Below, piece by piece: positions 420 through 63,894 of a DNA stretch of 64,000 nucleotides. A program made the translations under genes and the position numbers. This stretch comes from Enchytraeus crypticus (lineage: Eukaryota; Annelida; Clitellata; Enchytraeida; Enchytraeidae), in contig CAJHZI010000495.1 in the NCBI GenBank assembly GCA_905160935.1, forward strand, positions 954,501 to 1,018,500, in the 5' to 3' direction. Every line of letters begins with the position of its first letter. Positions within the stretch are counted from its first letter, which is position 1. The notes below the pieces were generated by a model. The model saw nothing but the letters and a program-made list of their open reading frames with translations, was not told where the DNA came from and did not search any database.

Positions 420-3400
420 CTGCTGACAGAGAAGGGCAGCCATGTTAAAGCTCGTCGAGAGCTGGAGCAGCTGACAGCAGAGCAGCAGCAGCTGAGCAAC
501 GAAGTGGAACAGCTGAGGAAGACCTTGACTACGCTGACGGAAGAGCTGGAGACAGAGCGGAGCTCGGAGATGACGAGGAAGCTGGAGAGCGAGAGACTGA
601 GCGGAGAACTGAAGACCGTCACTCTGGATAGGGACAGGCTGATGAGAGAGTCGATTGAGATGGAAGCCAAGGAAGCCACTATGAGAGAACAGATTCAGGT
701 TTGTTCAAAACTTCCTGTTAGAAGTTTCTGTGTAATATCTGTGGAAAATCTATGTAATACTTATGTAATATCTGTGTAATATCTATGTAATACTTTTGTA
801 ATATCTGTGTAATATCTATGTAATACTTATGTAATATCTGTGTAATATCTATGTAATACTTATGTAATATCTGTGTAATATCTATGTAATACTTATGTAA
901 TATCTATGTAATACTTATGTAATATCTATGTAATACTTATGTAATATCTATGTAATACTTATGTAATATCTGTGTAATATCTATGTAATACTTATGTAAT
1001 ATCTTTGTAATATTCAGTTGTAATTTTTGATTCTGACATTTAGTTTGTCTTACGTAGTCATTATTTAGCATCTCTACAAAAGTTGTTAATAGTTCTTCAT
1101 AGATATATTTGTTTAATACATTTTCGTCTGCTGATACATATTTGTTTGAATTGGTAATATTGTACTATTGTGTTTTTTTAAATAAATTTTCATGTAATCC
1201 TTTCTTTTACTCTGTCTTGATTTATTTATTTTATTGTATTTTATTATTGAAGTGGTTTTGAAACCGTAACAGGCGATACTGGATGGTTTTTTTGGATGTT
1301 ATGTTATATGTTTGTGTAATTATAGTTCTATTGAAATTATTATAGTTTTAATTAAATTGTCCTCAAATTCAGGCCACTCTGCCCTCTCCCCCCCCCCCTT
1401 GAGTGCATTGAAATGAACATAGTTCTCTCTCTCTCTCTCTCTCTCTCTCCCTATCGGCAATCTTAAAGCATGATGTCCGGAAATCAGTGGCTTCATCGTG
1501 GCCTAGACACAATGCTGCCACTAACAATGGTGACAATGTTATAATTTATATGACTATAATGGTGACGTTCTAATTACATGTAGCAATTAAACACGGTTTT
1601 GTATGGTTGTTGATGCTTACTTAGAGCTTAGAATGGAGGCACTCAGAGAAAGTAACAGAACTAAAGGCCTCCAGTGATCGCATTCAGCTGATAGAAGAGA
1701 GGCAGAGATTTGATATGAATAATCTCTCTCAGACATTGCAGGTAATCAATCAATCAATCAAACACCGCAGGTAATCAATCAATCAATCAATTAAACACTG
1801 CAGGTAATCAATCAATCAAACACTGCAGGCAATCAATCAATCAAACAAACACTGCAGGTAATCAATCAATAAAACACTGCAGGTAATCAATCAATAAAAC
1901 ACTGCAGGTAATCAATCAATCAAACACTGAAGATAAATAATCAACCCTGTTTTCAGACCTGTGTGTTCTAAATAGCTGACTGCTGTTTGATGATCATCTA
2001 TCGTGATCATCCAGGTACCCTGCTAGAGATCAGGTGGTACAAGTTCTGTGACAGGCCCAGCATTGACTTGTACTTGAGACACAGTTGAGACGGAAAGCTG
2101 ACGCTAAGCTTTTACTTTTTAAATAATAAATGTAAGGTTAACGTGATCAATTACAACTGGACTCGCCCTGACCATCCTAGGACACATTAGTGACTTTTCT
2201 ACTGTTCGAATGTTCCATTCATTTGTCCATAAATATTTTTAAGACAAACTATTGTACGATTAATTTATTGGTTTATAATTCATATATTTTATTTACGATT
2301 GATTGACTGATTGATTGATTGGCTGATTGATTAATTGATTGATTGATTGATTGGCTGATTGATCGATTGACTGATTGATTGATTGATTGATTGATTAGTC
2401 TACAACAACAGAGCTGGTATCACTACGACGTGAGATGTCGTTGATCACTCAGGAGAGGTCTGAGCTCAAGGCACAAATTGTTCGACTCAAGGAGGCTCTT
2501 AGGCTGATCATAGAGCAACAGCAGAAGGTCTGACTGTGGCTCATTTTATTTCTACTGTATTTAAAGGACTGTGGCTTTGCCTCATTTTATTTCTACTTTA
2601 ATTAAAGGACTGTGGCTTTACTTTATTTTATTTCTACTTTATGTAAAGGACTGTGGCTTTACCTTATTTTATTTCTACTTTATTTAAAGGACTGTGGCTT
2701 TGCCTTATTTTATTTCTGCTTTATTTAAAGGACTGTGGCTTTATCTTATTTTATTTCTACTTTATTTAAAGGACTGTGGCTTTACCTCAATTTTATTTCT
2801 ACTTTATTTAAAGGACTGTGGCTTTGCCTAATTTTATTTCTACTTTATTTAAAGGACTGTGGCTTTGCCTCATTTTATTTCTACTTTGCTTAAAGGTCGT
2901 TTTAAAATCCGAGTCTTACACGTTTTTAAAGTAGTTTACGTGGTTGTCTTGTGGTTTAGAGGTATGGACTATTTTTAGTCCTGAAATAGACTAATATATA
3001 AATAAACACTCTTGAATTATATTTCTCTCTCTCTCTCTCTCTCTAATATTCTGCCTATTGTCTGGTTTATGGTACATATTCGTGTTAAGAGTCTGATTTC
3101 TCTCTCCATAGAAACACTCTATTGAGCAACAAGTTAATATATTATACTATACACAACTGTGTATACTATACTATACACAAATTAATGATACTATACACAA
3201 CTGTGTGTAGTATCATTGCTGTGTTGTTATCATTGCTGTACACTGCCTACATAATTATACTGTATGAATGCAGTACACTGTTTATAGTATCATTGCTGTG
3301 TTGACTCTCTATGTACACATTATATGTTTGCTGAGACAGAAGGGAGGGAAGACTGAGATAGTGATTGACTATGAGGAGCTGAATAAACTACTGGCTGACT

Positions 3401-3681
3401 CTGAACCGCCCCCTGTTGAGAGCAGGTACTGCGCGTATACAATAAATAGTGTCTAAAATATAAGATAATATAAATATAAGATAATATAAAAGATCACATC
3501 AAATATAAGATAAACATAATTACCACAAAACATGGCGCACTTACAGCAGTATAATTCCCCTCCCTAATCCGAGGGTCATTGAGGTATTTGTCCTCATCCA
3601 AATCAGACTCCAGTGTCGTCTGCTAGTTATGCCATAATAGACTAATTAATTATAGTACTCTTTGCTAACCTTTTGATTGAT

Positions 3682-3747
<66 letters not shown>

Positions 3748-5409
3748 TCATCTTCTTTTGCCATTGGATCCCAGTTTAACTAGGGTGGGGATTAGAACAT
3801 TTTGTAGCAACTTCTGGAGCCTAGGCGCTTACCAACCTTATGCCCTTTCTGACGTTGGTTTGGATCGTAGTGCTTTGTTGCCTTTTACGACACGTGCAGT
3901 CCACAGTTTTTTTCTTATTTCTGTTGGGTTAAGCATAAAATGATAAATACAGCTGACAAATGTGTAAATATTCCGTAGATACTGCACACTAATAGTACTA
4001 TTAATCAATGAGGTGATTAAATGATCGACTTAGTTTACTGAATGATTGAGTTTAGATATTGATTCACCTTTGACGGATTGAAATATCGATTAATTGATTG
4101 ATTGATTTTTCTTATAATGATTCATTGGTTAATTAATTTTATTAGTTGATTAAGTAATAATTGATTCGCTGACTGACTGACTGGCTGATTGATTCACTGA
4201 TTGATCGACTGCTTGATTAATTGATAGATTGATTCACTGACTGATTAAATGATTCACTGATTGATTGATTGACTGATGGATTGATTTATTCATTCATTTA
4301 TTCATTCATTCATTGATCAAATGATTGATTGATTGACTGATTGATTGATTGATTGATCAGACCGCTAAGTTTCCTGCAGGCCACACTGACAGGGCTGAGA
4401 GGGGAGATCAGTAGTCTACAGCTGCAGGTGAACGAGCACACCTCAGCCGTGCAGAGCTCATCACTGGCCTGGAAGTATGTGCCTCTCTGATCTTTTACTA
4501 GGCCTGCTAACTAGGCCTGTTATCTAACTTGGCCTGTTGTCTCTTTTTGTATCTACTTTTATATATTATTTATATCCATTTATGTCTTTTTGTCATTTCT
4601 GGCATAAAACTAGTTATATATAACTTAATGGGTTTAGCGAGGGAATCTTGTCCAGTGAGCTTGTTGTCCGATATTGTATTGTATCGTATTGTATTGTATT
4701 GCATTGCATTGTATTGTATTGTATTGTTTTGTAGAGAGTTGGCGGCACAGGTTCTAGAGTGTATTGTATGGTATTATACTGTTTTGTATTGTATTGTATT
4801 GTAGAGAGCTGGAGGCACAGGTTCTAGAGTGTATTGTATTGTATTGTAGAGAGCTGGAGGCGCAAATTCTAGTGTGTATTGTATTATATTGTATTGTATT
4901 GTATTGTATTGTAGAGAGCTGGAGGCACAGGTTCTATATTGTATTGTATTGTATCGCATTGTATTGTATTGTATTGTATTGTGGAGAGCTGGAGGCACAG
5001 GTTCTATATTGTATTGTATTGTAGAGAGTTGGAGGCACGGGTTCTATGGTGTATTGTATTGTATTGTGTTGTATTGTATTGTATTATATTGTATTGTATT
5101 GTATTGTATTGTAGAGAATTGGAGGCACAGGTTCTAGATCTACGTGAGGTTTGTCAGAGCTCTGCCGCTGGTCGTGCTGCGGCCTCACAGGCTGACCTTG
5201 ACATTGCCTCTATACTTCAGCAAGCTCCGCCCAGTCTCACTGATCTGACCAATCAGACAACTCAAGATATATTCTCAGCGAATCAAACATCTCGAGACAT
5301 TTCCTCGTCTGTGATACAGGGAGCCGATGGTGCTGAAATTTCTGTGACAACTATCAACGTTTCTGATTCGTCGAAGAAAACGACTGTTACTAAGGCAAAG
5401 GTGTCCTGA
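420..5409 (+). CDS. Coiled-coil protein, C-terminal six exons (5' partial)
   Basis: I read six exons: 420-698, 1625-1741, 2399-2527, 3340-3425, 4361-4474 and 5115-5409 (TGA at 5407). All are bounded by AG and GT, and the phases agree (0, 0, 0, 2, 2). Together they encode about 339 aa. The first three exons are Glu/Gln/Arg/Leu-rich heptad sequence typical of a long coiled coil (for example EQLRKTL and RSELKAQIVRLKEAL). The next exon carries an acidic DYEELNKLL stretch and a PPP. The last exon begins ELEAQVLDLRE and ends in a Ser/Thr/Asn-rich tail without coiled coil, finishing TKAKVS. The 5' part lies left of the window, so length and N-terminal domains are unknown. A cytoskeletal or centrosomal/ciliary rootlet-type protein is possible, but I do not recognise a specific family. 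Exons are much richer in GC than the introns. Most introns end in GATT tracts in place of a pyrimidine tract. Confidence 0.72.
730..1012. repeat. Tandem repeat in intron after first exon
   Basis: Alternating units of TATGTAATATC and TGTGTAATATC/TATGTAATACT are repeated about a dozen times. The array begins some 30 bp after the splice donor at 699. Confidence 0.85.
1732..1932. repeat. Tandem copies of a splice donor junction
   Basis: The real junction at 1741/1742 reads ACATTGCAG|GTAATCAATC. It is followed by about six further copies of CACTGCAG|GTAATCAATC (one CACCGCAG, one with GC instead of GT), spaced 24-34 bp apart. Each copy holds the last 8-9 nt of the exon plus the start of the intron. 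Confidence 0.85.
2524..2896. repeat. 41-bp minisatellite starting at a splice donor
   Basis: About nine copies of a unit of roughly 41 bp (GGACTGTGGCTTTGCC followed by CATTTTATTTCTACTTT and TTTAAA). The array starts at the donor of the third exon (AAG|GTCTGACTGTGG), and later units carry AAAGGACTGTGG in the same register. Confidence 0.85.
3060..3140 (+). repeat. Interspersed repeat, 'GGTACATATTC' family, fragment
   Basis: It contains GGTACATATTCGTGTTAAG, TCTCTCTCCATAG and GAGCAACAAGTTAA. The same arrangement recurs at 9980, 45250, 50490 and 54955, so this is a dispersed element. Confidence 0.55.
3120..3306. repeat. Degenerate tandem repeat (ACTATACACAACTGTGT)
   Basis: Units containing CTATACACAACTGTGT and TATCATTGCTGTGTTG are repeated imperfectly. 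The stretch is intronic, just upstream of the exon at 3340. Confidence 0.6.
3686..3745. repeat. (TA)n microsatellite
   Basis: About 30 uninterrupted TA units. It directly abuts an interspersed repeat copy at 3746, as other TA tracts in the window abut mobile elements. Confidence 0.9.
3746..3935 (+). mobile_element. Dispersed element, 'CAGTTTAACTAGGGT' family
   Basis: It shares CAGTTTAACTAGGGT, CTGGAGCCTAGGCGCT, CCTTTCTGACGTTG and TTACGACACGTGCAGT with copies at 18690-18985 (minus), 43865-44125 (minus), 59690-59885 (plus) and 63895-64000 (plus, cut by the edge). It is probably a non-autonomous retroposon. I see no coding capacity. Confidence 0.7.
4060..4360. repeat. GATT microsatellite ending at a splice acceptor
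   Basis: Degenerate (GATT)n with ATTC interruptions. It finishes GATTGATTGATCAG at 4347-4360, immediately before the exon at 4361. There is no conventional polypyrimidine tract in the last 40 bp of the intron. Confidence 0.8.
4672..5114 (+). repeat. TATTG microsatellite with six decoy copies of an acceptor and exon start
   Basis: (TATTG)n tracts separate copies of TTGTAG|AGAGCTGGAGGCACAG at about 4732, 4801, 4847, 4911, 4981 and 5021. The true exon start is at 5115. Every copy carries the acceptor AG (GTGG in the fifth) plus about 22 nt of exon, up to GGTTCTA. Part of the region stays open in frame with the last exon (from about 4939), so exonised forms could be translated. Confidence 0.9.
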
Positions 5410-6654
5410 TTGATTTAAAAGTTTTGCTCTACAGTGTGGATAATATCAAGTGAAGAATCAGCGTGTTCCAATTTATATAAAGATATAGCTATAGTTATAG
5501 TTAAATTATAGCTGCTCTTTTGTTTTACAAGAAAGCAACATTTTCTATCAGAATTTTTGTATTTATAGCTATATGTTTAAACCATATGTTTGTCTAAGCT
5601 ATTTCAATGTTTGCTTAGTTATGCTTGTGCGTTGGCCGTTCCATAACTGCTTATAATTCATAAGATTATTAATTCCTGTTTAGGAAAAGCAATCAAAAAT
5701 TTCCATATCTCTTAACGGCTCATTACGTTATATTTCCAAATATATGCGTTGTTATATGAACAGTTGTAAGGTAATCGAGTGCTCGTTACCATATCTGAAA
5801 GAATTTATCTATAGGAATATCCATACTGGGTCGGCAATATAAAGATTAGAGCATGGTTGAAAAATGAAATGAGCAAAATGTTCATTGGTCAGAGAGAGTG
5901 TAATCGAATACATAAATTCAAGGAAATTTAGCCAAGCTTTACTGAAAATCGATGAAAAAGAGATTTATAGGGTTTATTTCCTTTTATTGTTGTCGGGTTA
6001 ATATTATCTAGTTTGGAAATGATAGAGTTTATGTGTATGACATTTTGAATAATATTAATTTTTTATTTTACTTGTTTATGTGAGGTTTATTATTCAACGA
6101 TTCTTTGATTGAAAGTATTCTATATTTGAATAAGATGAATTTAGCAACTCTCTCGCAATCTGACTGTTATGTCAGTGATGGTTTGGCTTGAAATTTGAAC
6201 CTATAATAGGAAGCAAAGGCATATAATACTGAACCAATGTACCACTGACTAATGCTGTTTATAGGTTTACGCGAATTAATATAATTACAAACGGAATCCC
6301 ATTTTCTTCGAAGTTATGTTGTTCTATTAATTAAGTAATGTTATGTTGTCCCGTCTGTAGAAGCTACAGACAATGATTAGTAAATTATTATCTTGTAAAA
6401 GGTTATATATATATTTATGCTATTATTTCTATTAATATATTTATTTACTATTATTAAGATTTTTGCCACTTTCTTAGAATTTCTATGTTTCATTTTGTTA
6501 ATTATGGGTTCTAGTACAATGCAATTGTAGAACGTTTCTGGTTATTTTTGCATTGTCACCACAACTTGGTTGTTGTTGAAAAATGAAATGAACAAATGCT
6601 ACTTGGTCAATACTTTTTATATTTTATATGTACTGTATAATATCATAGGGTGTT

Positions 6655-7110
6655 CATTCTACAACTGAGTTGCGAGAGCAGCAGTTGAATCTTGAACTCG
6701 AAACTGCACTCGATTCTGTAACCTCTTGCTTGCTTATAAAGTGTGCAACCAACTTGAACATCCGCCAGAAAGTCTTAGAGTAGTGTGACAATGTAGCTGA
6801 GGGTTTTTGTACTTCAGTAGATAGGCTGAAAATCCACCTGGCTGAATTTAAAATATTACTCTAATCTTTGTTTGTAGAATCTGATAACATTCGTCGACTG
6901 CGTTTTGACTATTGGCCATATATTCTTGTGACCAAGCAAATCTAGTTTTCTCGCTGCATAGTAACTGGACGCGCTAAGATGAATAAGATCGCATAATCTG
7001 GACTTTAATGTTAATAGGATTGATTGAAAGCCTATGAAAGCATCATCGTATGTTTCATCATTATTGATGAAATAATAGGATGATGCTTTCATTGGATGAA
7101 GCCACTGACG
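6655..7110. other. Unassigned intergenic sequence with nested inverted repeat
   Basis: ATGAAAGCATCATC at 7034-7047 is the reverse complement of 7079-7092. A second inverted pair, TTTCATCA/TGATGAAA, lies inside it near 7053-7071. The small minus-strand ORF over this hairpin has no recognisable domain. Confidence 0.45.
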
Positions 7111-8184
7111 TATATTGGATGATGTTGTTTTGAACTGTTGTTATGTTTACTGTGCTGAGGTGACAGACTGTGTACTCTAGCTTAATGGACATAGCTTAAG
7201 CCTCACTATATTTTCTTTAGCTCTGTTCAGAATTTCGATTTGTTTTTGTATCAAAAAATCAATTGTTGTAGTTGATATTGCTGACCCATTTGTTATTTAT
7301 AACTTGAAATTGTTTTGAAAAATCTTCAAACTAGTTCATTTGTCAGTTCTGCCGGTATATGCATAGAAATAATTATGGAAAAATCTTCTCTATGGATCAT
7401 CAGTAATTTCATCTGTATCCCCAGTTTGAATAGATGTACGCAGAAGTATAGCTTTGTTTGGCATGTTGTATGAAATAGATGATCGAATTTGTGTGTAAAA
7501 CTATGATCTCTTTCACTCTGAAAGCTTATAATAGCAAGCTAGAGAAGAGAGATAGTTTTCATTTTTATAGAATTGTTTAATACATACCCCATTGTTATAT
7601 CAGCACAGTTGACATATTAAATATGCAAATATGCGTAACTTTTTATTTCTTAAAGTTATATTAATTGGCATTTTCTTTGTAGTCCCTTCTACGCTTCTAA
7701 AATTGGCTTTGGCTACACAATTCTCTATATTGCTGTAAGTTCTGCTTTTTATCACTATAATTGGTTCATTGTTCTAGAAAAATTGCTTCATAATGTATCG
7801 CTAGTGTGCTGACTTGGAGTTAATTTAATTTTTTGCGAATTTGGATTGACTTTCCAACGTGGCCTGTGTATATATTGCTGGTGGTAATTTACAGTGTTTA
7901 ATTGTATAGTCGTCCTAAAACTCGTTGGACTTGATACTAGCAGTCCTCTTTGCTCTTGTTGTATATAATGTTGTTGTTAACAGCTTTAGTAGTTAGACAG
8001 TAATCTATGCAGTACTGGGTACTTGTGTGACTGTAAATAGCGTTGCTAGTTTCGGGTACGTAATTCTGATATTACAGTTGAATGCATTATGTTAATGGTG
8101 TATAATGGTCTACCTATTCTTTATGCTTTCATTTACAATACACGCCTCACATAAATGTGACATAATCAACTGTGGCTGTGTAAT

Positions 8185-8253
8185 GTCGATTAGCCTGGAA
8201 CTCTCTGCCTCCTGATCTTCGCTCATATTTCCACTTTCTATAGTAGGTTGAAA
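8185..8253 (+). mobile_element. LINE 3' end fragment, left part (split by a SINE)
   Basis: The conceptual translation reads WNSLPPDL, the familiar C-terminal motif of LINE ORF2 proteins. The rest of the same element resumes after the SINE at 8527. Too short and degenerate to be coding. Confidence 0.6.
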
Positions 8254-8526
8254 ACCTACTATAAAAGGTTGGGGAACGCCTCGTGGCGCAGTGGGCAGTG
8301 GATAGAGCGCTCGCCTCCTGCGTGAGAGGTCGCTGGTTCGAGACTGCGTAGCGACGTGGGTTTTTCTTTTCCGAGGGGCGAATAAAAACCCAGTCGTGTA
8401 CACTTGGTGGTGTCAGGCCGATGGATAGCCGACCTTAATATTCCATTTCCTATCTAGACCCCTCCGTGTCGACCCCGAATAGGGATTAACGGCACGCTAA
8501 AAGGAAGTTTTTTATTTTGTATTTTT
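8254..8526 (+). mobile_element. tRNA-derived SINE inserted in a LINE tail
   Basis: The tRNA-like head has an A-box-like TGGCGCAGTGG and a B-box-like GGTTCGAGACT, followed by a tRNA-unrelated body with TCGACCCCGAATAGGGATTA and a T-rich 3' end. The insert is bounded by the same 17 bp, TATAGTAGGTTGAAAAC, at 8237-8253 and 8527-8543, as expected for a target-site duplication. It is the only copy of this family I see here. It is not a functional tRNA gene: no cloverleaf was established and the B-box is followed by unpaired sequence. Confidence 0.8.
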
Positions 8527-8790
8527 ATAGTAGGTTGAAAACACATCTCTTCCCAAAAAAGGATTTATATCATAGATTTTTATCACCAGACCGGCATCGT
8601 CTAGGATCTCCTGCTTTATATCACATAGGCCTAAATTTAAATCATCAATAGACCTTTAATTTAGGTCTATTTTTAAATCCTTTGGGTTAATCTATTAGCA
8701 GTGACGCTTGATGGGGGACGTCCCAACAGCATCCTTGTATTGCATATGGACGTTAAACCTTATTGCTATGATTATTATTATTGGTATTTT
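8527..8790 (+). mobile_element. LINE 3' end fragment, right part
   Basis: It resumes with ACACATCTCTTCCC (translated HLFP-like), then CCAGACCGGCATCG, GATGGGGGACGTCCC, ATCCTTGTAT and GGACGTTAAACCTTATT, ending in an ATT-rich tail. Related tails occur at 15800-16008, 26205-26385 and 56590-56755, and on the minus strand at 25130-25192 and 37780-37842. Confidence 0.65.
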
Positions 8791-8999
8791 TATCTATTCT
8801 GCATTCAACCTGATAAAGGTCCTACATTACAAATATTGCACTCAGTCAACTTTCTAGCTAACCATTGAGCGCACAGTTCAATGCTTAGCTGAAACTGGAA
8901 TATGTGGGATATTTCTACCAGAGTTTGCTTTCGAAAATGGTCAGTACATCTCAAACAGCAATATCGGTTATTAAAATCTCATTACAGTACAGAACCTAT

Positions 9000-9013
9000 G
9001 AGATATATATAGG

Positions 9014-9081
<68 letters not shown>
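9000..9081. repeat. (TA)n microsatellite
   Basis: A nearly pure TA run after ATATATATAGGCC. The overlapping Tyr/Ile ORF is an artefact of the repeat. Confidence 0.9.
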
Positions 9082-9083
<2 letters not shown>

Positions 9084-9159
9084 GGTGAGAAACAGGGAAC
9101 AGGGCAGAGCATAGTATGACATTAATTATGGCGTCTTAATAAAACGTTTAACGCTCGAT

Positions 9160-9280
9160 CTGAAATCAACACAGATTTCAAAAAGCTTATAGATATCAAA
9201 AGGCCTATAGATTTCAATAGGCGTATAGATTTCAAATCTATAGATTTTAAATATATATATTTTAAATCTATAGGCCTTGT
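9160..9280. repeat. Short repeat with ATAGATTTCAAA and its inverse
   Basis: Units around ATAGATTTCAA are repeated four times, then inverted as TTTTAAATCTATAGGCC, giving an AT-rich imperfect palindrome. Confidence 0.55.
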
Positions 9281-9820
9281 TATATACGGCTTAGAATAGT
9301 TCTGACCCGCTGTCATCCCACAGTGCTCTTAATTGGTTTAGTCATTTTCTCATCTTCCCTAGATCTGAAAAATCGTTCTGCCTTTAATAAGTCTCGTATT
9401 ATTGCTTGATACAATCAAGCAGCATTGTCAAGTATTCAAGCGGTGACTAAATAACCACAACTATTTTAAGCCGTGTTTTACTCCGCACGTTCTGTTGTAC
9501 GCAGACATTCCTCAATGAAATAACCAAACAAGTCGTGCTCGAAGCTAGCCAGTGATTTCTGATTTACGTGAAGAGCAGAAGAAGAGTTGAAATGGTCTGG
9601 AGGGAATGCCACTCCACTGCTGGAAAGGAATTTTACGTTATTTTCATCATAATCATCACTCGTTTATTTCAGACAAAGGTCCATAAGACATTTCATGATG
9701 CAATGACAGAAACGAGAAAAAGAAAAAGAATTACGTAGTCTAACATGAAAAGATACAAAAGCTAAACAAAATTAGTGATCAGCTTAGATAGAACCTTGAC
9801 ATGGAGGGAATAAGAGCATT

Positions 9821-9960
9821 ATGTGACCGCGGTAAGGTATTCGACCGCGGATCAGTATGTGCGGGGTTCAAATCCTGGGCTCTCCCGTCACTGACATCGC
9901 TTTCGAGTGAGAAAACTGACGTTAACCTTAGCTGTTTACCAGGACCTTCTTTTTCTTTAG
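9821..9960 (+). mobile_element. tRNA-derived SINE, 'GGGTTCAAATCCTGGGCTC' family
   Basis: The head carries GATCAGTATGTGCGGGGTTC with a B-box-like GGTTCAAATCC. The body has CGTCACTGACATCGCTTTCG and AACTGACGTTAACCTTAGC. Other copies: 10790-10912 (minus), 14053-14190 (plus), 38174-38293 (minus), 54709-54835 (plus) and 62028-62115 (plus). Confidence 0.75.
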
Positions 9961-9979
9961 TGCACTGCCAAGTGGCATG

Positions 9980-10180
9980 TTCAAGGTACATATTCATACT
10001 CAAAGTCTGTTTTCTCGCTCCATAAGAGCACTCCTTAGATCAACAAGTTAATCCCTTCACAAAGTCAATGCCTTATCCATACCTTGTGTAGCCTATAGCT
10101 TGGGAAATGTATGGCTTCTGAGACCAGGGCCTTATAATGCCGTATTTATCAAAGCAACGAGCTCCGTGGCCATGCTTTAA
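9980..10180 (+). mobile_element. Dispersed repeat, 'GGTACATATTCATACTC' family
   Basis: It holds GGTACATATTCATACTCAAA, CTGTTTTCTCGCTCCATA, GATCAACAAGTTAATCC and TATGGCTTCTGAG. It matches copies at 45250-45400, 50485-50720 and 54955-55025, with weaker ones at 3060 and 53860. No coding capacity was seen. Confidence 0.65.
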
Positions 10181-10789
10181 ACGAAGTGAAAGAGTAAGCC
10201 TGAATTAACTTTTGTGACGGTAGCCCGAATGTGTTCAATCATCTTGAATGCATGGCTTCTGAGCATGTCATTAAAACCACCGCATCACTCGTCTGGTTAT
10301 TCGTTTTTCCTGCAATATAATTAACTATGTCTGATTAGACATTAGAGCCGACGAACTTGTGTAAATATTGAGTAACGGTATGGCTCATTACAAACAATGA
10401 GTTAGGTCCACTCGTTGGTAATTTAAAATTAGGGGAAAATACCCTACAGTAGTTTTCAACCTATTCTATACAGTGCAGTGATGAAATGCTTCCCCGTGTT
10501 TCATAGACCGTTGCTAAAATTTCACTAAAAAAGAGTAACTTCAGGACATTAAAGAAATATAAAATATTTTAAACAAATTGCGTGCGGACATTAAGATCTA
10601 ATAATAGTCATGTAGGTGACATTAACCGTTATTGAGGAGGATTTATTTTTTATCCATTGAAGCTGATGTGGAAAGTTAGCTTTGGGAGTAGCCTTTGAAG
10701 TAGCCAAAGAGGTTAAACTTTAAGATTAGCCTTTGAGGTAATCAATGAGGTTATAATGTGAGACTAACATTTAATTTAAAAGCTAAAAA

Positions 10790-10912
10790 AGCTAAGGTTA
10801 ACGTCAGTTTCCTCACTCGAAAGCGATGTCTGTGACCGGCGAGCCCAGGATTTGAACCCGCACCTACTGATCCGCGGTCGAGTATCTTACCGACTTCACC
10901 ATTGGCTCCAGC
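10790..10912 (-). mobile_element. tRNA-derived SINE, minus-strand copy
   Basis: Reverse complement of the SINE at 9821: GTTAACGTCAGTTTCCTCAC, GGATTTGAACCCGCAC, TCCGCGGTCGAGTATCTTAC, GCCACTGGCTCC-like end. Confidence 0.75.
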
Positions 10913-11148
10913 CAATTCAGAATACTGTTGAAATAGGCTAAGACCAATTAAGTTCAGACTACTGCTGAAGTAGGCTAAGCACGAAGTAAAGCATCGTTTG
11001 TGTGCGCAAAGTTCCAAATACTCTATATGGTCGACGCAGTTTCAATTTCCATATTAATAGAAGATTGATGATTTAATCAGTTAACATTCAATTGTAAATG
11101 TTCAAAATGCAATAAGTTAACATAGCAATATTAATACCTCACAGCATT

Positions 11149-11151
<3 letters not shown>

Positions 11152-11196
<45 letters not shown>

Positions 11197-11321
11197 ATTA
11201 TATATTATTATAATATTAATATAATATATTATGTTATATATAATATATATATAATATAATATAATCTATATATAATATACTATTTAATATATATATATAT
11301 ATATATTTATATTATATATAT

Positions 11322-11385
<64 letters not shown>
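11152..11385. repeat. (TA)n and AT-rich low-complexity tract
   Basis: Long TA runs separated by ATATAATAT variants. No other structure was read. Confidence 0.9.
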
Positions 11386-11392
<7 letters not shown>

Positions 11393-11894
11393 GTCTATTA
11401 TTTAAAAGGTTTAGGCTAACAGATTGATTACGTAACACTAGTCAAGGCTGTTTGGCCGCTGTTGTTCTGAGGAAATCCTCGCTGAGCTGAAGGGTGTGAG
11501 GCAGCGCCTGGCTGATGACTCATTCTACGTGTAAAAAATTGTAAACAAAGAGTTCTCAACCCATCAGCTGCAGGCCAACAGAGAACTACTAAGACGCAGC
11601 CCTTAAGTCTAAAATAATTAGACATTGAAAAAAATTCCTGTTTTTTAAAGTGTGTAAATCTCATATTCTGCAATCTGAGTAGACTTATTCAGATTTCAGA
11701 ATATGAAATTTTGAAAGAGATTAACGCAAATAACGTACTAAGCATATGAGAATTGATCAAATGTGTTACTACTCCTAACCACTGTAGAATGGACTAAACG
11801 TAAATGTCACGGGTAGCAGGAGGTGACTGAGCAAGAACCGAGAAAGACAAAGAGAAACCACCCCGTAAACCATATTTTTCAAGCTATAAGCTTC

Positions 11895-12150
11895 ACTTAT
11901 GGGTAAACAGCATTGTTTTCTCAGGGAATGACTCCCCTGCCCAGTAAATGTTAGTAGAAGCTGAGGAAGGCATAGGGGCCTACCTCATTATATGCAGAAT
12001 CCCCCAAGAATAATGGTATATAAAAAGGAATGTTATAAATAATTAAAAAAATCCACTCGTATGTGGACATGATGAGAAAGATAGAGATAAGTAGAGGCGT
12101 TATATACCATGGACCTGCCAGTAGGCAGTGCACTAAGAGAGATCGGAGCA
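11895..12150 (+). mobile_element. Non-autonomous element sharing the LINE 3' tail
   Basis: It runs from GGGAATGAC through AAGCTGAGGAAGGCATAGG and CAAGAATAATGGTATAT to GTTATATACCATGGACCTGC and GGCAGTGCACTAAGAGAGA. The same series occurs on the minus strand at 22928-23165. The last 40 bp equal the 3' end of the LINE at 31797-33370. Confidence 0.7.
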
Positions 12151-12634
12151 GATAACGGATAATTAATCGAGGGACCGGTAAATGTATAGCGGACTAAACT
12201 ATGCTACGATTTAGGCATGCGATAATAGAAGTCATAGAAATCATCATGGATCATCGTTTAACTACGGTGGCTATCCTTTTATCAATTTATTCGCAGCTAA
12301 GTTAAATTTTATTAACAGAGTTATTGTATCTTAATTGATCTATACTTACTTACGTTTCTGTGTTTATTCACGATACCAATTAATAAGCACAGTTATCTCT
12401 AATGATTTGTTAAAAGATATTATTATTGTTTTATAATTATTTACCAGAATTTACCTCAAATAGTCTGAATCTCGCTCATTCTAAGATGCTCAGAAAAGTG
12501 AAACGAAATACTATCCCTTGTCGCCATCATAACAGCAAACAATTAGAACGCTATTCTCGATAATGATCATTGAACATATAGAGAACATAGAGAGTCAACC
12601 TCAATAATAATAACATAATAATAATAATAATAAC

Positions 12635-12895
12635 CTCCTACAATTTCTATGCAGTGTCATGACAGTGACCGGTTTTCGAGACTGCTTTTAAAGGTTCCTG
12701 GCAGGTTATTGTCAATCCTTTTCCTGTTTAATAAAATCTTTGCTATTCTAGCTCCAATTGGCGGCAAAGCTCTAATACATGATTAGCCTTTCATTGGCCC
12801 ATGGGGACATACTTCATTTTTTGACTGACCTGGACTTTGAACCTAGGCCACTTGCTTCCGAGGCGAACACTAGTCTTTACGCCATATCCCACCCC
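12635..12895 (-). mobile_element. tRNA-derived SINE, 'GGTTCAAAGCCCAGGTCGG' family, minus strand
   Basis: Homologous to the plus copy at 52377-52655, with a matching tRNA-like head (GACTTTGAACCTAGGCCACT here) and body (TTCATTGGCCCATGG, GTTCCTGGCAGG, GTGACCGGTTTTCGAGACTG). Fragments lie at 19170-19215 and 59325-59450. Confidence 0.75.
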
Positions 12896-14052
12896 CTTCT
12901 GGCACATCGATTAATGCGTATCGGTCGCGGATAATTGCTCATCTCTATTCTTATTTCTTACTCGACAGATGCTAACGGAGTAAATGAAAACTTGAAGGCA
13001 ATTTTCCAGATTTTCAATTTGAACCCTGCTCTAACCTAATTTGCCGTCACGTTAAATGTGGTGCACCATATTAACAGTGTAAACACATCGCACTGTGTGT
13101 AAGACTGCGTGCTTTCAGGCACGGCATAATGCTTGACATTCCAAGCATTTCATTATAAAAACACGAACACTACGGCGCTAGCTAACTAAAGAGTCATCAC
13201 TGTTTACATTGGCTACTTATGTTGTGTCATTATTGGTATTAGCACGTACGAAACACTAAATCAGCTACGATTACTTTATTATCAAAGCAAGAGTAACACT
13301 AGTGCTATTTCATTAAGCAATTAGATAACGTATTTGACTAATTTTAGTCAATAACGAATTGAGTAAAAATTAGACTTATTTTAGCAAACGTGTCTGCTTA
13401 AACGTGATTAGCGGGTAGTGCAGAGGTTAACCATGACAGTAAATACATGAATTCTGATGATAATGCAGCTTCCTAGCTAAAATGACGTAGCGTAGTTTGT
13501 CAGAATAAAACCTTATCAGCAGTAACTGCTTGATAAGGGTTTCCTATTTTATCATGCTTTAAACATGGCTAATTTCTAATTGTAATATTGCTTGCTTTAG
13601 ACTTTGACGCAGTTTGCTAGCACGCATTGAACCTCCAGCCTATAAATACACTTACATCTTAGTGCGTTTTGTTGTTTCAGTTGGTTCTTCAGACCTAACA
13701 GTGCTAGACGTCAAGTATGTCACAAAACAGTGAGTGTAGGTATGAAATGAAAATAGAATAAATCAATAGATAATGTGCTACTACATAGTAGAATAAATCG
13801 TATAGGCCTACTTATAATAAATATTATACAAGTTAAGTCGCAAGCTAATATACAAGTTGCAAGCAAGTTTTTAAGTTGTAAGCTGTAGACCTGAATACTG
13901 CTAGACTAAGTTCTATATCGGTAGGTTACAGTGTGTTTGCCATCATTGTTCTAAAACACAATGTTTATCTTTAAGGTGACTTGACAAAAGCGAGCTACCG
14001 TTACAAAGCCTTCTTCAAGCTTTCATTAAGTTCAGCATAGCTTCTGTACTGT

Positions 14053-14190
14053 CTGGAATCAGTGGCGAAGTTGGTAAGATACTCGACCGCAGATCAGTAT
14101 ATGCGGGTTTCAATCCTGGGCTCGACCGTCATTGACATCGCTTTCAGTGAGGAAACTGACGTTAACATTAGCTTTTTTATAGCTTTATTA
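14053..14190 (+). mobile_element. tRNA-derived SINE copy
   Basis: It carries AGTGGCGAAGTTGGTAAG, an A-box-like head, then GGGTTTCAATCCTGGGCTC, GTCATTGACATCGCTTTC and GACGTTAACATTAGC, with a TAGCTTT-repeat tail. Confidence 0.75.
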
Positions 14191-15335: not shown

Positions 15336-15366
<31 letters not shown>

Positions 15367-15775: not shown

Positions 15776-15799
15776 CTCGTTGAATTACTGTTCATCTTG

Positions 15800-16257: not shown

Positions 16258-16259
<2 letters not shown>

Positions 16260-19320: not shown

Positions 19321-41425
<22,105 letters not shown>

Positions 41426-46030: not shown

Positions 46031-57119
<11,089 letters not shown>

Positions 57120-58630
57120 TGTGGCGTTCTAGGGTCTTAACCTGTACCACAAAGTAGGCTATACGCATGTGTTTAACCGGGAGTATATAGTGATAAAAAC
57201 ACTTCTTTTAAATTTCTTAATTGACTTTAAAAAGCTCAATATATCAGTAACCCATCAAAGTACTACTCAATTTTGACATTACCAATTGAATATCATCATA
57301 AAATAACTAAATAGATATATTCAACAACTTTAAATCAAAATAATTTAGTCAGCAAAAATTGATCTGCTAGTACTGAAACAACTCCATCTGGAACTTTAAG
57401 TACTTATCATAAAACAAAACAGATTCCAACAAGTACATTTTTTAAAACAAATTGATATTACTGTTTAATAGTATCATCTATATCCGTACAATGAGAGACT
57501 TAAAACTAAATATCCAAAATCTTCAAACCCTTAACAAAAGACAAACACGTGATAAACATATCTATAAATCAGTAACACCAGTTCAAACTTCTAAAATTTC
57601 AACAATCTTTTCCAATATCTGTGCCAGCTTAGAAGGAGCAATATGAAAAGGATATTATTCGATATCATCCTAATTTTAATAAATTAGGCGAGCTATTTAT
57701 TTCTAACCTGACAACATCAATTGACACGCGAAGAAATTTTAATTCACAAAGTCGTGTTACTTAATTTTTACTACTCTTAAAAATAGACATAAATCCAGCT
57801 TGCAATCACAACATAACCAGTTAGTTCAGAAGTAAAGAAACAATCTCGTTTTATTAAATAGCTTGTTAAGCATAATATGATTGTGTATCAATTTAAGAAA
57901 ATAATAATTTATAAGTATAGGCAAATGAACTGCATTTAAAATTTATTTAAAAATGTGAAACCGTTTGTGCAAAAAAATAATCACAAAAAGTGGACTTGAT
58001 AAATCACACCACAAAAACATTAAATCTTGACCTATTTCTCCATAACTTAATCTATTTCTAATTTTCATCAGAAATAAACTCATATTCAAGTACTATCTTA
58101 GGTTAGTGTTATTGCATGAGTTATCGTTTGAGACAGGATTTTGATCAATAATAGGACTTAGAGATATTTTGAGCTTAAGAAAATTTTTCCTAGAATTAGG
58201 TCAGTATCTATTGGTTTGAACTTAGCACTAGTAGGACTGTTACAGCGGAGATCTAGGGTTTAGAAGCAGTTTTTGTAAATAAAAAATACATGATTGTAGA
58301 TTTTATATACAATAGGCTATGAAATATGTTTAAGAATAAATTCAAATTACCAAAAATAGCACAATGAAACAAAAAATCTCCCTGAATGTAGCAAATAAAG
58401 TTTATCAACTTCAAATAATTATTTGGCCCAATATTCTCGTTGATTGGCGCCAACCTAAGCCGCCAAGGCAGCGATTTGTCGTTAAATTTCAGCAGTGCAT
58501 TTTTTTCGTGTTTCAAACTATCATAATCGTAAGTGGCCTATACGCTATTCCATGTATAATTTCCAATCTTAGTCCACTCTCTGCCTAAGTCATGAAATCG
58601 ACCTATTGCTTTATTTAGAATATCTTAATA
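57120..58630. other. Presumed CTP synthase 5' flank
   Basis: AT-rich sequence upstream of the ATG. No TATA box or 5' UTR intron could be fixed from sequence alone. No coding ORF is supported. Confidence 0.4.
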
Positions 58631-58632
58631 AA

Positions 58633-58865
58633 GCAGGGGTAACTTCATGAAGTTTTAAATGACAGATCCTGAGGTGAACCATCATGGGTTCGAATGAATC
58701 GAATCTCAGCCGCGCTGATCTGAGAGTAAAATCTCGGACATTCACTGGACTGGTTACACGGAAAATGGAATAAATTGCCTAGCGGTTTAACCATGTGTTA
58801 TTAAAAAGTGCTATATATCATCACAGTTGATCATTTCACTATAGGCCTAATGCGTGTTTACTTTA
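58633..58865 (+). mobile_element. tRNA-derived SINE, full copy
   Basis: GGGGTAACTTCATGAAG, CATGGGTTCGAATGAATCG, CAGCCGCGCTGATCTGAGAG, CACTGGACTGGTTACACGG, TTGATCATTTCACTATAGG, collinear with 22500-22735. Confidence 0.8.
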
Positions 58866-59324
58866 TTGTATTTAATGATTTAAATAGTATTGGCCCATAT
58901 ATACATGCATATTATATATAATTAAGCTAGCAGGTACGTAACGACAGCAATTAAATTCAGAGTAGGCCTAGTTATATTGTCATACTAATTAAATGAAGTA
59001 GTACATTATGAAACAAACTGAATTGCGCAATATTGAATTTGTCAGGGATAAAAGTTACTTAGGCTAGGTTTTTGATGGAATTTTCTAGCTTCTGAAAAAA
59101 TTTAAAGGCTTTCCAAAATGTTGTAAATGAAGAGCCATATTTAGAGCCCACGCTTCGTTTTTTATTTTCTTCCCAGAGTAAAACTCGCTTAAAATTTATC
59201 TCAATTATATCGTAAGCCAAATGAAGGTTATAATAATAAACATGTAGGCCAACTGTATTGAATCAGAAAGCACTTATAAGCTTAATTTTTTCAGACCAAT
59301 TTAGACTGCTTTACAGCTTGCGAC

Positions 59325-59450
59325 AGGTTATCAGTAATCTTTTCATGGTTAGGCCTAATATTATCTCTGCTATTTATAGAGTCAACTGGAAACAATCTCC
59401 GATAGGCCTAAATGACTAACCTTCCATGGGCCCAAAGGAATATCCATAAT
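59325..59450 (-). mobile_element. SINE fragment ('GGTTCAAAGCCCAGG' family)
   Basis: CAGGTTATCAGTAATC, ATAGAGTCAACTGG and CCTTCCATGGGCCCAAAGG correspond to the body of 52377-52655 in reverse. Confidence 0.55.
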
Positions 59451-59689
59451 TTGAACTCAGTCCACTTGTAATCCTACAAAAACTTAACCGAATTGATAGT
59501 ATTCCGACCCTGGTTAAACTGGGATTTAAAGGAAGATGATAGTGATGATGATGTCACTATGAAGAGAGTGAAAACTAGTGGAGTATTGATGGTCAAGATG
59601 GTAGCAGATCTGCCTACACAAGCAAGTGGTCACGGGATTGAATTTCATCAGCGAAAGGTTTTGTCAAAGTTCTGTGATTTCAAATCATC

Positions 59690-59885
59690 ATCATCATCTT
59701 CCCTTAAATCTCAGTTTAACCAGGGTCGGGATACGAATAGACTTTCTCCAGTCCTCCCTGTTCCACACCATATCATCAGTCAATCCCCTATTCTTTTTAA
59801 GTTTATCCATTCGTTTAAATTTTGTGGCAATTACTGGAGCCTAGGCGCTCACCAACCTAATGCCCTTTCTGACGTTGAAAGTTCT
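59690..59885 (+). mobile_element. Dispersed element, 'CAGTTTAACCAGGGT' family
   Basis: CATCATCATCTTCCC, CTCAGTTTAACCAGGGTCGG, AATAGACTTTCTCCAGTCC, CTGGAGCCTAGGCGCTC, CCCTTTCTGACGTTG. A minus-strand scrap of the same family lies at 59495-59545. Confidence 0.75.
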
Positions 59886-59899
59886 GTGATTTAACAAGA

Positions 59900-62025
59900 G
59901 ACGTTAATTCTAGAAGCAGCATTAACTGATAATACAGTGATCATAATATTATGTGACGTTTATATAATGAAGTGAATTCAAATGAACAGCAACTACAGTT
60001 CATCATCTAAATGCAGCATCTGCCAACTCTTAACCTACAACCCTTTCTGTGAATCATTGCCTTTGTCTTCGCACAGAACCTATCGAATATGTTTGAAACA
60101 CATTAACAAACTTGCCAACATAACGAAGTTTAATTGAATTAATTAACGGAGTTGCTATACAAAACTAGAGAGATTTCCAAAGGATATAAAAATATGTACA
60201 CATTCTTCAAGCAAAAGCCAATGAAAAAATAAGCTAAAAGTATAACTGATATATAATCAATAAATATTAAAATATCCAAATCTTCTGTAACAAGTAACGA
60301 AACTAGAAATGCGATTGAATATGGGTTACAACTTTAGAGCTGTCACCTAAGTTTGATGACAACTCTGACGTGCATGGCCACGTTTATAACGGCAGCATCG
60401 GAAAGTATCCCGCAGCAGTGGCCGTTATACATGTACATTATCCAGTATTAATTATACATTTGCAGAAGACAGTGGGATACCATTTCGCACACTCTATATT
60501 TATGACATTACAAAGTCCCCATTGAGGTACTATAAAGGTATGGCCTTTGCTACAGGGTTAACTAGCTGACAGACTAAGTTTTCCTATGGTGGGAGTATAC
60601 GCTGTTAGCAGGAACGGGCACATTGGACGTGCCATTAGTCACTAAGAAATATAAGAGATAGAGAGAGAGCTAAATAATATTAATTATACTTATAACATTA
60701 TAACAAGCAAGTGCTCTGACATCATCAACGGATAGTAGAGTTAGTGCTGATTATAATTATTGCACAAGATGGCTCAGGAATTATTATGTCCATATTTACT
60801 AAGTTCTCCTTAAACTGCAGATTATTTACACCTCAGACGAGAGTTAAACTATGGATCAGAAATTCCGAAATATTCAATAAAAAATGTTGCGTGGTTTTTA
60901 ACTATAATGTCGCCCACAAAAATTAAAGCGCTCAGCCAATAACAGCATTGTCCGTCAGGCTGATCGACCAATCAGCTTATTTCGTTAACAGAACTAAAAT
61001 ATTGCTTCTTAATTGACGGATTCACTAAACCATGGTATAAACCTCTGAAAAGAGAGGCGCAGCGAGAATCACTTTAAACCACGATTTTAGCTTAGAGAAT
61101 ACCAAATTTTGACCAATAGTAGTTTACACCACTGTTGAGGTTTAAACTGCGGTTTATCTCACCAGTGAATATGGCCATTAGATAAACTCATGACTAATGG
61201 AAAGCGCTTGTACAATTGAAATAATATAGCCATTGACTTTCAATGGGACCTAAATGATTAAAGAAATACAGGGGCTTTATTGAGCTCGCAAAAACGAAAA
61301 TAATACTAGTAAATGAAGTCTCAATATAAACACTGAATCAAGCCTACAGTACGTGTTATGGATCTAAACAGAACTCATAATTACAACTTAACTACAAAAT
61401 TAACATAAACTTCGAATGCAAAAAGCCTATTTTAATTATAATTCAAACCATAAACTTAACTTTTCAATCAATCATGATTTCAAAATGCAAATACTCATAA
61501 CGGCAAAAAATTCAACCCCTCTCGAATAGGACACAAAAATTGCAACCAATTATATTCTACCATTCATCATTGTGTGCAGCAAATGTCATATCAGTATTTC
61601 AAGCATAAATACACATTTTTAAAGCCATGGTTGGGGAATTTTTAAATCAACAGAAAAAAGTAAAACACAATTCAACTACCACAAATTTGTAAAAACCTTA
61701 AACTACAATTAATTCTGTCTCCAAAAAAATTGAGAGAGTACTATTAACAACAAATATTAGGTTTTAAATTTTTTTTAACTATAAAGGTCAAATTAATTTT
61801 ACAGTAGTTAATGCTACGTACACATTGTATTCCAATTATTAGGCCAGATATAATTCTTGCTTATACCTTTGAAAAAAAAGTGATCCAACACAACTGAAAT
61901 GTTTGGATTAATTATCTAAACTTATTTAAATAGCGCTCAACACCCCATAGATGCCACGACCACAAAAGAAGTCTCAATATTGTACAGGGCTCAACAGAGC
62001 GCCTCATGTTACTTAATACTATATA
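59900..62025. other. Intergenic AT-rich stretch; no gene recognised
   Basis: I see no conserved ORF, RNA gene or clear repeat here. CTP synthase (upstream region) and the RING gene (3' end) are both on the minus strand, so promoter elements of the former and the 3' UTR end of the latter may lie in this gap. Confidence 0.4.
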
Positions 62026-62027
62026 GT

Positions 62028-62115
62028 ATGTGCGGGGTTCAAATCCTGGGCTCGCCCGTCACTGACATCGCTTTTGAATGAGGAAACTGACGTTAACATT
62101 AGCTTTACCAGCTTT
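62028..62115 (+). mobile_element. tRNA-derived SINE, 5'-truncated
   Basis: GTATGTGCGGGGTTCAAATC, CTGGGCTCGCCCGTCACTGA, GAAACTGACGTTAACATTAG. Confidence 0.7.
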
Positions 62116-62204
62116 TACATGCAAAATACAGAATAATTACTACAAAAGTGTAGCAAAACTTCTACCAATTCATTGCATCATTACAATAAACCACTACACT
62201 TGAT

Positions 62205-62335
62205 AGCGACTATCAAGGCAGAGCTGACCTTAACAGAGACTACTAAGGCAGACATGACCTTGACAGAGACTACAAGGCAGAAATGACCTTGACAGAGACT
62301 ACAAGGCAGAGATGACCTTGACTACTCACCTAGAG
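62205..62335. repeat. 29-bp tandem repeat (GACAGAGACTACAAGGCAGA)
   Basis: About four to five copies, in the probable 3' UTR or flank of the RING gene. Confidence 0.85.
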
Positions 62336-62633
62336 ATGACTTTGGCAGAGCTGTCACATAACTTATGGAATGTTCCTGAATACTCACTCCTTCAGAATTA
62401 CAAGGAAATAAGCATCAAACTGTTATTCCAGAGATGATAAGATTAAAACTAAGAAATAACTAAAAGAAATAAGTTTAACCTCAGTTTCTCCAACATAAAG
62501 GGGTAACTGGAAAAATTCAAACCGATGACAAATTACTATCAAGCCAGTGTGCTTACAATTCGGTCACGCAACCAGTACAATGATCAACAACAATGGCATG
62601 AGCAACAACAACATAATCTCTAATAAGTCATTA

Positions 62634-63824
62634 CTATTCCGTAGTTTCGCTTGACCTGCTACGACTGGCAGCGGAGAATTTCCTAGCGGACGGCCCACTG
62701 GTACAGACTACGTGACTGACAGGGAAGCAGCTCACGCCCAGCGGGTCCATCACGCAACAGTCTACGGCTGATTCGAGGGGACTCAAGGGATTTGAACTAC
62801 ATCTATGATTCGTGGATTTGGCCGAGTCAAGTGCCGATTGGTAACTGCGATCAACTCGATCGATATTGTCAGCAGATGGCCAGACGTTTACGCGAGCAAT
62901 GCTGCGGCGTGCTCGAGGCATAAATTCACTACGTAGATCACAAGAAACCTCACTAGGCTTTTGCTTATCGACCACGCAGCTCTTTCCGTCGACGTCCAAA
63001 CTGCAAGCAGTCATGTCTCCCAGCTGACGAGATGTAGCTAAGTTGTCCGACAGACTTATTACACCTTCAATGGGCTGATCTTTACCACTAGTCTTCTGGC
63101 CATGTTCCTTCTTTCTTTCGCAAGCACGGTTCTCTACGCAACATTCAGAATTAAAATCTGCTTGCGGTTCAGCAAACACTCTTTCAACTGCAGCAGGAAA
63201 ATCAACGTTTGAACTCAATGTCCTTGGTACATCTAATGATTCGTTTGCAGCTTGAGTAGCTCCTGAAGTAGGCATGAGAGGGTGGGTCAATACTGAAGGC
63301 ACAAAGTTGAAATCATACACAAAATCCCGATCAGTCGGAGAAAGACGAGAATCACCGGGCGATAAAATACAATCTCCACGATTAGCCGCAGGGAAAGCAT
63401 AATCACCACGGTCAGCCCATAAACTATCCTCAATTCTTTGATTATCCTCAGCGATATCATCGGTGTCGTCATCTGCGACACTCCTCCAGAACTCTGAGTT
63501 TCTCTCATCAATACCATCTGTCACAACGTTCAAATTGGCCGTTGGCTCAGCATTTCTGGGATAATACAATCTGTAGAGACTATTAAACCTATTATCGTCC
63601 ACAGCGTAGGTTTGACCTCTGTCAGCCGCTAGTCTGCTGCTTCTAGACGAAGGAAGCACATCAGCGCGTTGACGTGGGGCCCGAGATGTAGGAGGAGACG
63701 AAATCAGACTTCCGGAAAGTTCTGTTCTGGGCAGATCAGATGGTCGTAACACATTTCTGACCTGATTGTGCAGCGACGTGTCTGGAGAGCTCAGGGTTAG
63801 GCGACATATCGGACATGTGCCGTG
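62634..63824 (-). CDS. RING-H2-type finger protein, terminal exon (5' partial)
   Basis: On the minus strand, TTGCAG|CACGGCACATGTCCGATATG opens the exon at 63824, and the frame runs to TAG at 62634 (396 aa). It starts HGTCPICRLTLSSPDTS. CPxC is the last zinc-binding pair of a RING-H2 domain, and the (Q)H(x)TCPxCR context resembles RNF115/RNF126-type E3 ubiquitin ligases, where this segment also lies near the C terminus. The earlier zinc ligands must lie on exons beyond 64000. Unlike those proteins as I recall them, about 380 residues follow: Ser/Arg/Asp-rich, with no recognisable domain, ending SRSRSSETTE. The acceptor is duplicated in the intron at about 63862-63880. A different RING E3 family remains possible. 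Confidence 0.8.
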   Translation of the reverse strand, partial: HGTCPICRLTLSSPDTSLHNQVRNVLRPSDLPRTELSGSLISSPPTSRAPRQRADVLPSSRSSRLAADRGQTYAVDDNRFNSLYRLYYPRNAEPTANLNVVTDGIDERNSEFWRSVADDDTDDIAEDNQRIEDSLWADRGDYAFPAANRGDCILSPGDSRLSPTDRDFVYDFNFVPSVLTHPLMPTSGATQAANESLDVPRTLSSNVDFPAAVERVFAEPQADFNSECCVENRACERKKEHGQKTSGKDQPIEGVISLSDNLATSRQLGDMTACSLDVDGKSCVVDKQKPSEVSCDLRSEFMPRARRSIARVNVWPSADNIDRVDRSYQSALDSAKSTNHRCSSNPLSPLESAVDCCVMDPLGVSCFPVSHVVCTSGPSARKFSAASRSRSSETTE

Positions 63825-63894
63825 CTGCAATGATCAATCAATCAATCAGTTTAATAAATATGGGCATGTGCCGCGCTGCAACGATCAATCATCA

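Follow-up and report, generated by a model that had tools for sequence, protein, structure and literature searches.

Why should the edges of exons recur, as copies, inside the introns that adjoin them? In the 64,000-nt stretch of Enchytraeus crypticus DNA analysed here (the window), exon/intron boundaries are found repeated within neighbouring introns, and the question raised by this locus is whether splice junctions attract duplication or are simply reached by a duplication process that affects introns at large. The assembly that holds the window comprises 524 Mb in 802 contigs. Four genes were modelled in the window: genes A and B on the forward strand, and genes C and D on the reverse strand. 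Gene A (6 exons modelled) encodes a coiled coil, gene B was modelled with 3 exons, gene C (coordinates 46034..57119) is a CTP synthase gene of 14 exons, and of gene D a single exon edge was modelled, with the exon end at 63824. With corrected edges the spliced frames of A, B and C are open and free of internal stops, and the exon edges of gene C are supported by the alignment of its product, from end to end, with a CTP synthase 1 of solved structure. A Pfam scan of the products of genes A and B matched no family.

A junction was scored as duplicated (strict test) when the 20 nt centred on it (10 nt per side) had a direct copy no more than 1 kb away, matching in at least 8/10 positions on each side and in at least 17/20 overall. 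Using provisional edges, several of which were off by 1-2 nt, 9 of the 43 junctions modelled in the window pass this test, namely the donor at 1741 and the acceptors at 5114, 46554, 47240, 48138, 49488, 50890, 55603 and 63824. Once the edges had been corrected, the test was passed by 1/20 donors and 7/20 acceptors of the 20 introns of genes A, B and C, and by the acceptor of gene D. On the forward strand, donor 1741|1742 of gene A is accompanied in the intron by an array of about 7 units, CACTGCAG|GTAATCAATC (1729..1944; TRF period 25-29), in which five copies pass the strict test, and the acceptor 5114|5115 of the same gene is preceded by six TATTGTAG|AGAGCTGGAGGCACAGGTTCTA-like units within a (TATTG)n array (4672..5138; TRF and strict test), with 22-24 nt of exon copied. 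The donor 38106|38107 of gene B (38090-38113; feature 38090..38157, seen in the sequence) has a single 24-nt copy with one mismatch at 38134-38157, and stays below the strict threshold because the match stops 8 nt into the intron.

On the reverse strand, six acceptors of the CTP synthase gene are duplicated, five of them recognised by TRF in addition to the strict test. Acceptor 46554 (46518..46668) lies in a 74-bp tandem duplication with 37 nt of exon copied, acceptor 48138 (48103..48272) in an 81-bp tandem duplication with 36 nt of exon copied and a unit that includes (GATT)n, and acceptor 50890 (50853..50962) in a 54-bp tandem duplication with 38 nt of exon copied. Acceptor 49488 (49409..49817) has a copy that lies 146 nt upstream, includes 80 nt of exon and is followed by (TTG)n, and acceptor 55603 (TTAG|GTGAGG; 55590..56400) heads an array of about 17 units of about 41 bp, with 7-14 nt of exon copied and ten copies passing the strict test. 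The sixth, acceptor 47240 (47230..47375), is matched by a diverged intronic copy 123 nt upstream (10/10 and 8/10 in the strict test). The acceptor of gene D at 63824 (63814..63890, reverse strand; strict test) has one copy 51 nt upstream in its intron. On the sense strand, the repeats that adjoin the acceptors read (GATT)n, (TTG)n and (TATTG)n, and the one that adjoins donor 1741 reads (AATC)n. The preliminary description had counted about ten duplicated boundaries distributed over all four genes, with a diverged copy at 47240, and had placed most of them beside (GATT)n, (AAC)n or (TATTG)n; all of this is borne out, with nine boundaries passing the strict test, the tenth (donor 38106) having a shorter copy, and (AAC)n reading as (TTG)n in the sense strand. 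Its range of 9 to 80 nt for the exon part holds at the upper end and comes down to 7 nt at the lower, and its copy number of 1 to about 18 holds at the low end, with the largest array reaching about 17 units according to TRF.

Similar copies were found in other genes. Exon chains built from domain matches to dynein heavy chains and kinesins provided 121 further introns, giving 141 together with the window. For dynein, 93/96 domain matches were used; those left out were a lone match on contig C353, an unfetched match on C283 and the second match on C775, the latter corresponding to an upstream copy of the donor edge of locus L023, where either donor could be the used one. For kinesin, 32/128 match rows from seven genes were used. 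The score filter was passed by 79/106 chained introns, and in the dynein set a better model took the place of intron L019 5545-6818 and the overlapping L027 3123-3744 was dropped, leaving 101 introns. Because of the score filter and the row selection, the junction sets lean to consensus-like sites, and the sampled introns are not fully independent, homologous introns of dynein paralogues all having been counted. Outside the window, 14/121 acceptors and 11/121 donors of the dynein and kinesin genes are duplicated by the strict test, and the phenomenon is thus real and widespread beyond the locus in which it was noticed. At L040, for example, a kinesin donor has eight copies spaced 44 nt apart, at L019 a dynein donor has eleven spaced 33 nt apart, and at L022 there are three copies of a dynein acceptor, each carrying 58 nt of exon. 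The window is an outlier on the rich side (7/20 acceptors versus 14/121 in the other sampled genes, Fisher p=0.013), which may be why the phenomenon was spotted here.

The dynein genes also document the turnover of such units. L016 (contig C199) and L026 (contig C109), either unpurged haplotypes or paralogues of recent origin, are 85-91% identical in the longer aligned pieces of exons and introns alike, and a single 48-nt unit distinguishes them at a shared acceptor; junction units, on the evidence of this one pair, come and go. Another dynein gene, L015 (G000:C178:628000-637999), has few introns, with open frames that run for 422 and 644 codons; its paralogues were modelled with frequent introns, about 0.7 kb long on average.

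A typical acceptor unit includes a U-rich microsatellite together with the AG and a piece of exon (7-86 nt), and in many acceptor arrays the copy extends back into the microsatellite. The copies are direct, head-to-tail and local, with a constant period (TRF; strict test, within 1 kb), as is characteristic of tandem duplications and minisatellites. Of the copies that pass the test, all 55 at acceptors are located upstream of the real splice site, at a distance of 26-168 nt for the nearest copy, and 34/35 at donors are located downstream of it, the nearest at 33-277 nt; in the exception, L023, the wrong one of two donors may have been taken as the true one. The AG is intact in 51/55 acceptor copies and the GT in 29/35 donor copies, in a test that itself demands 17/20 identity, and the copies therefore constitute near-perfect decoy splice sites. 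Two controls for chance matching gave nothing: no junction had an inverted copy (0/282), and no junction word (0/846) matched the flanks of introns at other sampled loci. Dispersal by mobile elements or introner-like elements was rejected on this last count, which refers to the sampled loci and not to the whole genome. No new spliced intron between copies was seen in the gene models made.

The microsatellites themselves are distributed in a polarised manner. Of the 141 introns, 32 have a 10-nt (GATT)n word in sense orientation within their final 60 nt, versus 7 within 60 nt of mid-intron and 2 within the first 60 nt, and its complement (AATC)n is found in 1/141, 0/141 and 7/141 introns at the same three positions, respectively. 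TATTG repeats (8/141) and TTG repeats (5/141) likewise occupy the last 60 nt in sense orientation only, their complements being found there in 0 and 0 introns. Sense (GATT)n also leads into acceptors that have no junction copy, such as 2398|2399 (tract 2297..2398) and 4360|4361 (tract 4186..4360) of gene A on the forward strand (TRF, strict test). The metazoan branch-point consensus is yUnAy; the UUGAU of (GATT)n fits it, and the tracts may serve as a branch-point region. Duplication is found at 8/32 acceptors with (GATT)n and 13/109 without (p=0.09), an association that is suggestive only. At the opposite end of the intron the asymmetry is slighter (AATC in 7 and GATT in 2 of the first 60 nt of 141 introns, p=0.18), and genome-wide CAGGT(AATC) has 41 matches, two of them in the window, versus 10 for CTGGT(AATC). 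Introns with (AATC)n in their first 150 nt have (GATT)n in their last 150 nt in 5/9 cases, versus 28/132 for the remaining introns (p=0.03), a weak indication that pairing of the two repeats could bring intron ends together.

Genome-wide, (GATT)n followed by an acceptor-like end (GATTGATTGATTGAT-NCAG) occurs 865 times, versus 137 times for the NCTG form. Among the matches listed (the first 100 of the 865 and of the 137), loci with at least two occurrences within 400 bp number 15/76 for NCAG and 2/97 for NCTG (p=1e-4), the NCTG control not being matched for intron location. Of the 15 NCAG clusters 10 were fetched, and eight look like exon-edge arrays by the test and a ninth (L048) by eye; cluster L043 was excluded from the codon counts, no exon having been recognised in it. 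Five exon peptides from these clusters were scanned against Pfam, which identified a protein kinase in L048 and CDC50 in L046 and gave no match for L045, L049 and L051, so that most cluster exons are recognised by their open frame alone.

The frequency of junction copies has to be judged against that of duplication elsewhere in the same introns. With repetitive words excluded, 20/139 acceptors (14.4%) and 12/140 donors (8.6%) of the 141 introns are duplicated, versus 1009/7358 intron-interior points under the same filter (13.7%; bootstrap 10.6-17.1%). A looser intron control gave 15-26%, a value inflated by degenerate repeats, and the strict filter was used instead. With the looser filter, exon-interior points were duplicated in 16/484 cases, and the profiles of the 141 introns fell on the acceptor side from 27% (40-80 nt before the site) through 15% (at the site) to 5% (40 nt into the exon), and on the donor side from 23% (160-200 nt after the site) through 9% (at the site) to 2% (40 nt into the exon). 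The rate thus declines from intron to exon on both sides, with no peak at the junction in this 141-intron profile. Introns that have a duplicated junction are heavily duplicated as a whole (a mean of 32% of points in 31 introns, versus 11% in the 105 others). A small acceptor excess, 14% versus 11% in introns without a duplicated junction, is possible, because interior points inside junction arrays score as duplicated and raise the interior rate. We therefore consider it likely that junction copies are the overspill of a heavy load of tandem duplication in introns. To the preliminary description the frequency had looked exceptional, a view at odds with these counts: in this sample the junction rate is not above the intron-internal rate, which is the outcome it had named beforehand as speaking against it. 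The plain null that it had set beside this view, according to which junctions are merely where exon sequence can be copied into an intron without harm, fits the counts and outperforms an exceptional process. Its proposal that repeat slippage captures exon edges is right in that tandem duplication, often beside microsatellites, does so, slippage itself being the presumed step.

The opposite reading, in which junctions, or R-loops or microsatellites situated there, are duplication hot spots above other intron DNA, is improbable. It would explain the richness of the window acceptors, the excess of NCAG over NCTG clusters and the apparent exon-edge arrays in nine of the ten clusters fetched, but acceptors outside the window are duplicated in 14/121 cases, the comparison with intron interiors shows no excess, and (GATT)n tracts followed by a non-repetitive 20-mer are duplicated in 6/16 cases next to acceptors versus 8/13 inside introns (p=0.27; the latter count replaces an inflated 34/48 obtained without the strict filter). 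Misassembly of repeat arrays at exon edges is hardly credible as the source of the copies: arrays of this kind are difficult to assemble, but the copies are told apart by substitutions, they occur in many genes and on many contigs, and paralogues differ by a whole unit. It is also very unlikely that the copies are functional alternative splice sites maintained by selection, and the alternative exons that the preliminary description had thought possible are unlikely too. Although their splice dinucleotides are mostly intact, use of the copies would introduce a stop or a frameshift for 51/52 intact acceptor copies and 28/29 intact donor copies (the copy at L023, which lies upstream of the donor, was not properly evaluated), and (GATT)n contains a TGA in every frame. 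Splicing must therefore largely skip the copies, or else the faulty messages are destroyed. Apparently the cell ignores these decoy sites. Under exon definition, splicing favours the site that is nearest to its partner across the exon, and this would be the simplest rule by which the copies are passed by.

The differences between copies and exons, divided into those private to one copy, those shared by some copies and those at single-copy junctions, bear both on function and on the way in which copies arise. Private changes in array copies are spread over codon positions 1, 2 and 3 as in untranslated DNA (12/11/17, p=0.24 against a third each), which speaks against selected splice sites, as do the amino-acid changes in the copies of L046 and L047. 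On the other side, third positions predominate at single-copy junctions (10/4/28, that is 28 of 42 differences; p=0.004 against 45%, our own rough estimate of the neutral expectation for a copy that faces a conserved exon), also when only exon parts of at least 20 nt are considered (7/5/24, p=0.008), and the differences shared by some array copies lean the same way (10/8/24). At L045 (1-470; G000:C147:218740-219450), three upstream acceptor copies with 86 nt of exon start differ from the exon by synonymous changes only. These synonymous sites are combined among the copies in a four-gamete mosaic, which suggests exchange between alleles. It is therefore conceivable, though we would put the chances well below even, that many of the copies result from unequal exchange between diverged homologous chromosomes rather than from single-strand slippage, and that two once-functional alleles are thereby set side by side. 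Such exchange between homologues with synonymous differences may account in part for the third-position bias. The numbers are small, however, and the most distant copy of L022, with seven synonymous differences in 58 nt, is too diverged for an allele. Unequal exchange would in any case refine the explanation by intronic tandem duplication rather than exclude it.

Taken as an overspill of intronic duplication, the arrays probably arose as follows. Local tandem duplication would strike the introns of this genome heavily and largely regardless of the content of the segment, minisatellites probably starting from microsatellites and growing through slippage or unequal exchange. Where a unit happened to straddle a splice site, the extra copy would fall within the intron, either before the true acceptor or past the true donor. 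Selection would purge most exon-internal duplications and tolerate those spanning an acceptor about as well as those inside introns, with donor-spanning ones perhaps tolerated less. Sense (GATT)n, U-rich and with a repeated UUGAU, forms many intron 3' ends and so places a slippery repeat at many acceptors. The copies would then probably leave with the intron, the nearest sites being paired across the exon. A bolder version, which we regard as rather doubtful, has (GATT)n as a common 3' splice-site module of this lineage, with UUGAU branch points repeated up to the YAG, that, being slippery, keeps budding copies of acceptor and exon edge. Introns would thereby be stocked with decoy acceptors, disregarded under exon definition but available as a source of new introns.

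Several known systems resemble these arrays in part. For the new introns that the preliminary description had envisaged there is a precedent in the potato RdRp gene, where a tandem duplication spanning an acceptor (intron 3' end and exon 5' edge) is described as having made an intron (Ma, Lan and Niu 2016, PMC4974935); as far as the consulted part of that report goes, a new intron with a cryptic donor arose there, whereas the copies described here lie inside existing introns. Polyubiquitin genes are described, in the portion consulted of PMC10809524, as having AG|GT repeats that act as dual-specific splice sites, and several duplicated acceptors here, including 55603, are likewise AG|GT in tandem repeats, although the motif is not significantly enriched among them (a GT follows 8/21 duplicated acceptors versus 27/120 others, p=0.17). 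The idea that AG|GT enrichment is the reason why duplications are tolerated was rejected on the same counts. Earthworm metallothionein loci, according to the sections consulted of PMC12783039, contain intronic minisatellites together with copies of exon 4 that are absent from the transcript. The likeness lies in the minisatellites of an annelid intron; in contrast to the exon 4 copies at one locus, one of them inverted, those found here are of exon edges, direct and in many genes. In Caenorhabditis elegans, CeRep25B and other intronic minisatellites have been tied to alternative splicing (PMC4039745), and these too are tandem repeats near splicing decisions, though the part of that account consulted does not mention copies of the adjoining exon edge. 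In the open-licence PMC literature we found no report of genome-wide exon-edge arrays or of (GATT)n acceptors, which is not proof that they are unpublished.

The arrays make the choice between near-identical splice sites testable in ordinary genes, since they offer natural series in which between 2 and about 17 acceptors or donors resemble one another, and for which scanning (the first AG past the branch point), site strength and exon definition predict the use of different copies. Claims that introns have been gained by tandem duplication can also be measured against them, since duplications across junctions can be common without a junction-specific mechanism. In addition, the one-sided orientation of (GATT)n at the ends of introns suggests how, within a lineage, a microsatellite can come to be linked with splicing. 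Most worth following are the decoys and the polarised tracts of (GATT)n at acceptors.

Some further features of the genome were observed. The mitochondrial contig (15.2 kb, code 5) has all recognised protein genes on one strand, as judged from open reading frames, in the order cox1-cox2-cox3-nad6-cob-atp6-nad5-nad4L-nad4-nad1-nad3-nad2 (cox1 named via Pfam and the others by eye, atp8 and the rRNAs not being included in the list), an order that we take to be the annelid ground pattern. Fragments that resemble cox1 but contain stops, and that probably derive from the mitochondrion, occur in the nuclear genome at G000:C361:258458-258736 and in four other places. Dispersed repeats with tRNA-like boxes, SINE-like as judged by eye, are located in introns and intergenic DNA of the window (8260-8460, 38175-38275, 54700-54830 and 62020-62100). 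Intronic minisatellites of 30-41 bp in genes A and C (2540-2896, 48824-49083 and 51684-51891) lie close to exon edges and exclude the edges themselves, the one at 2540 beginning 13 nt past a donor.
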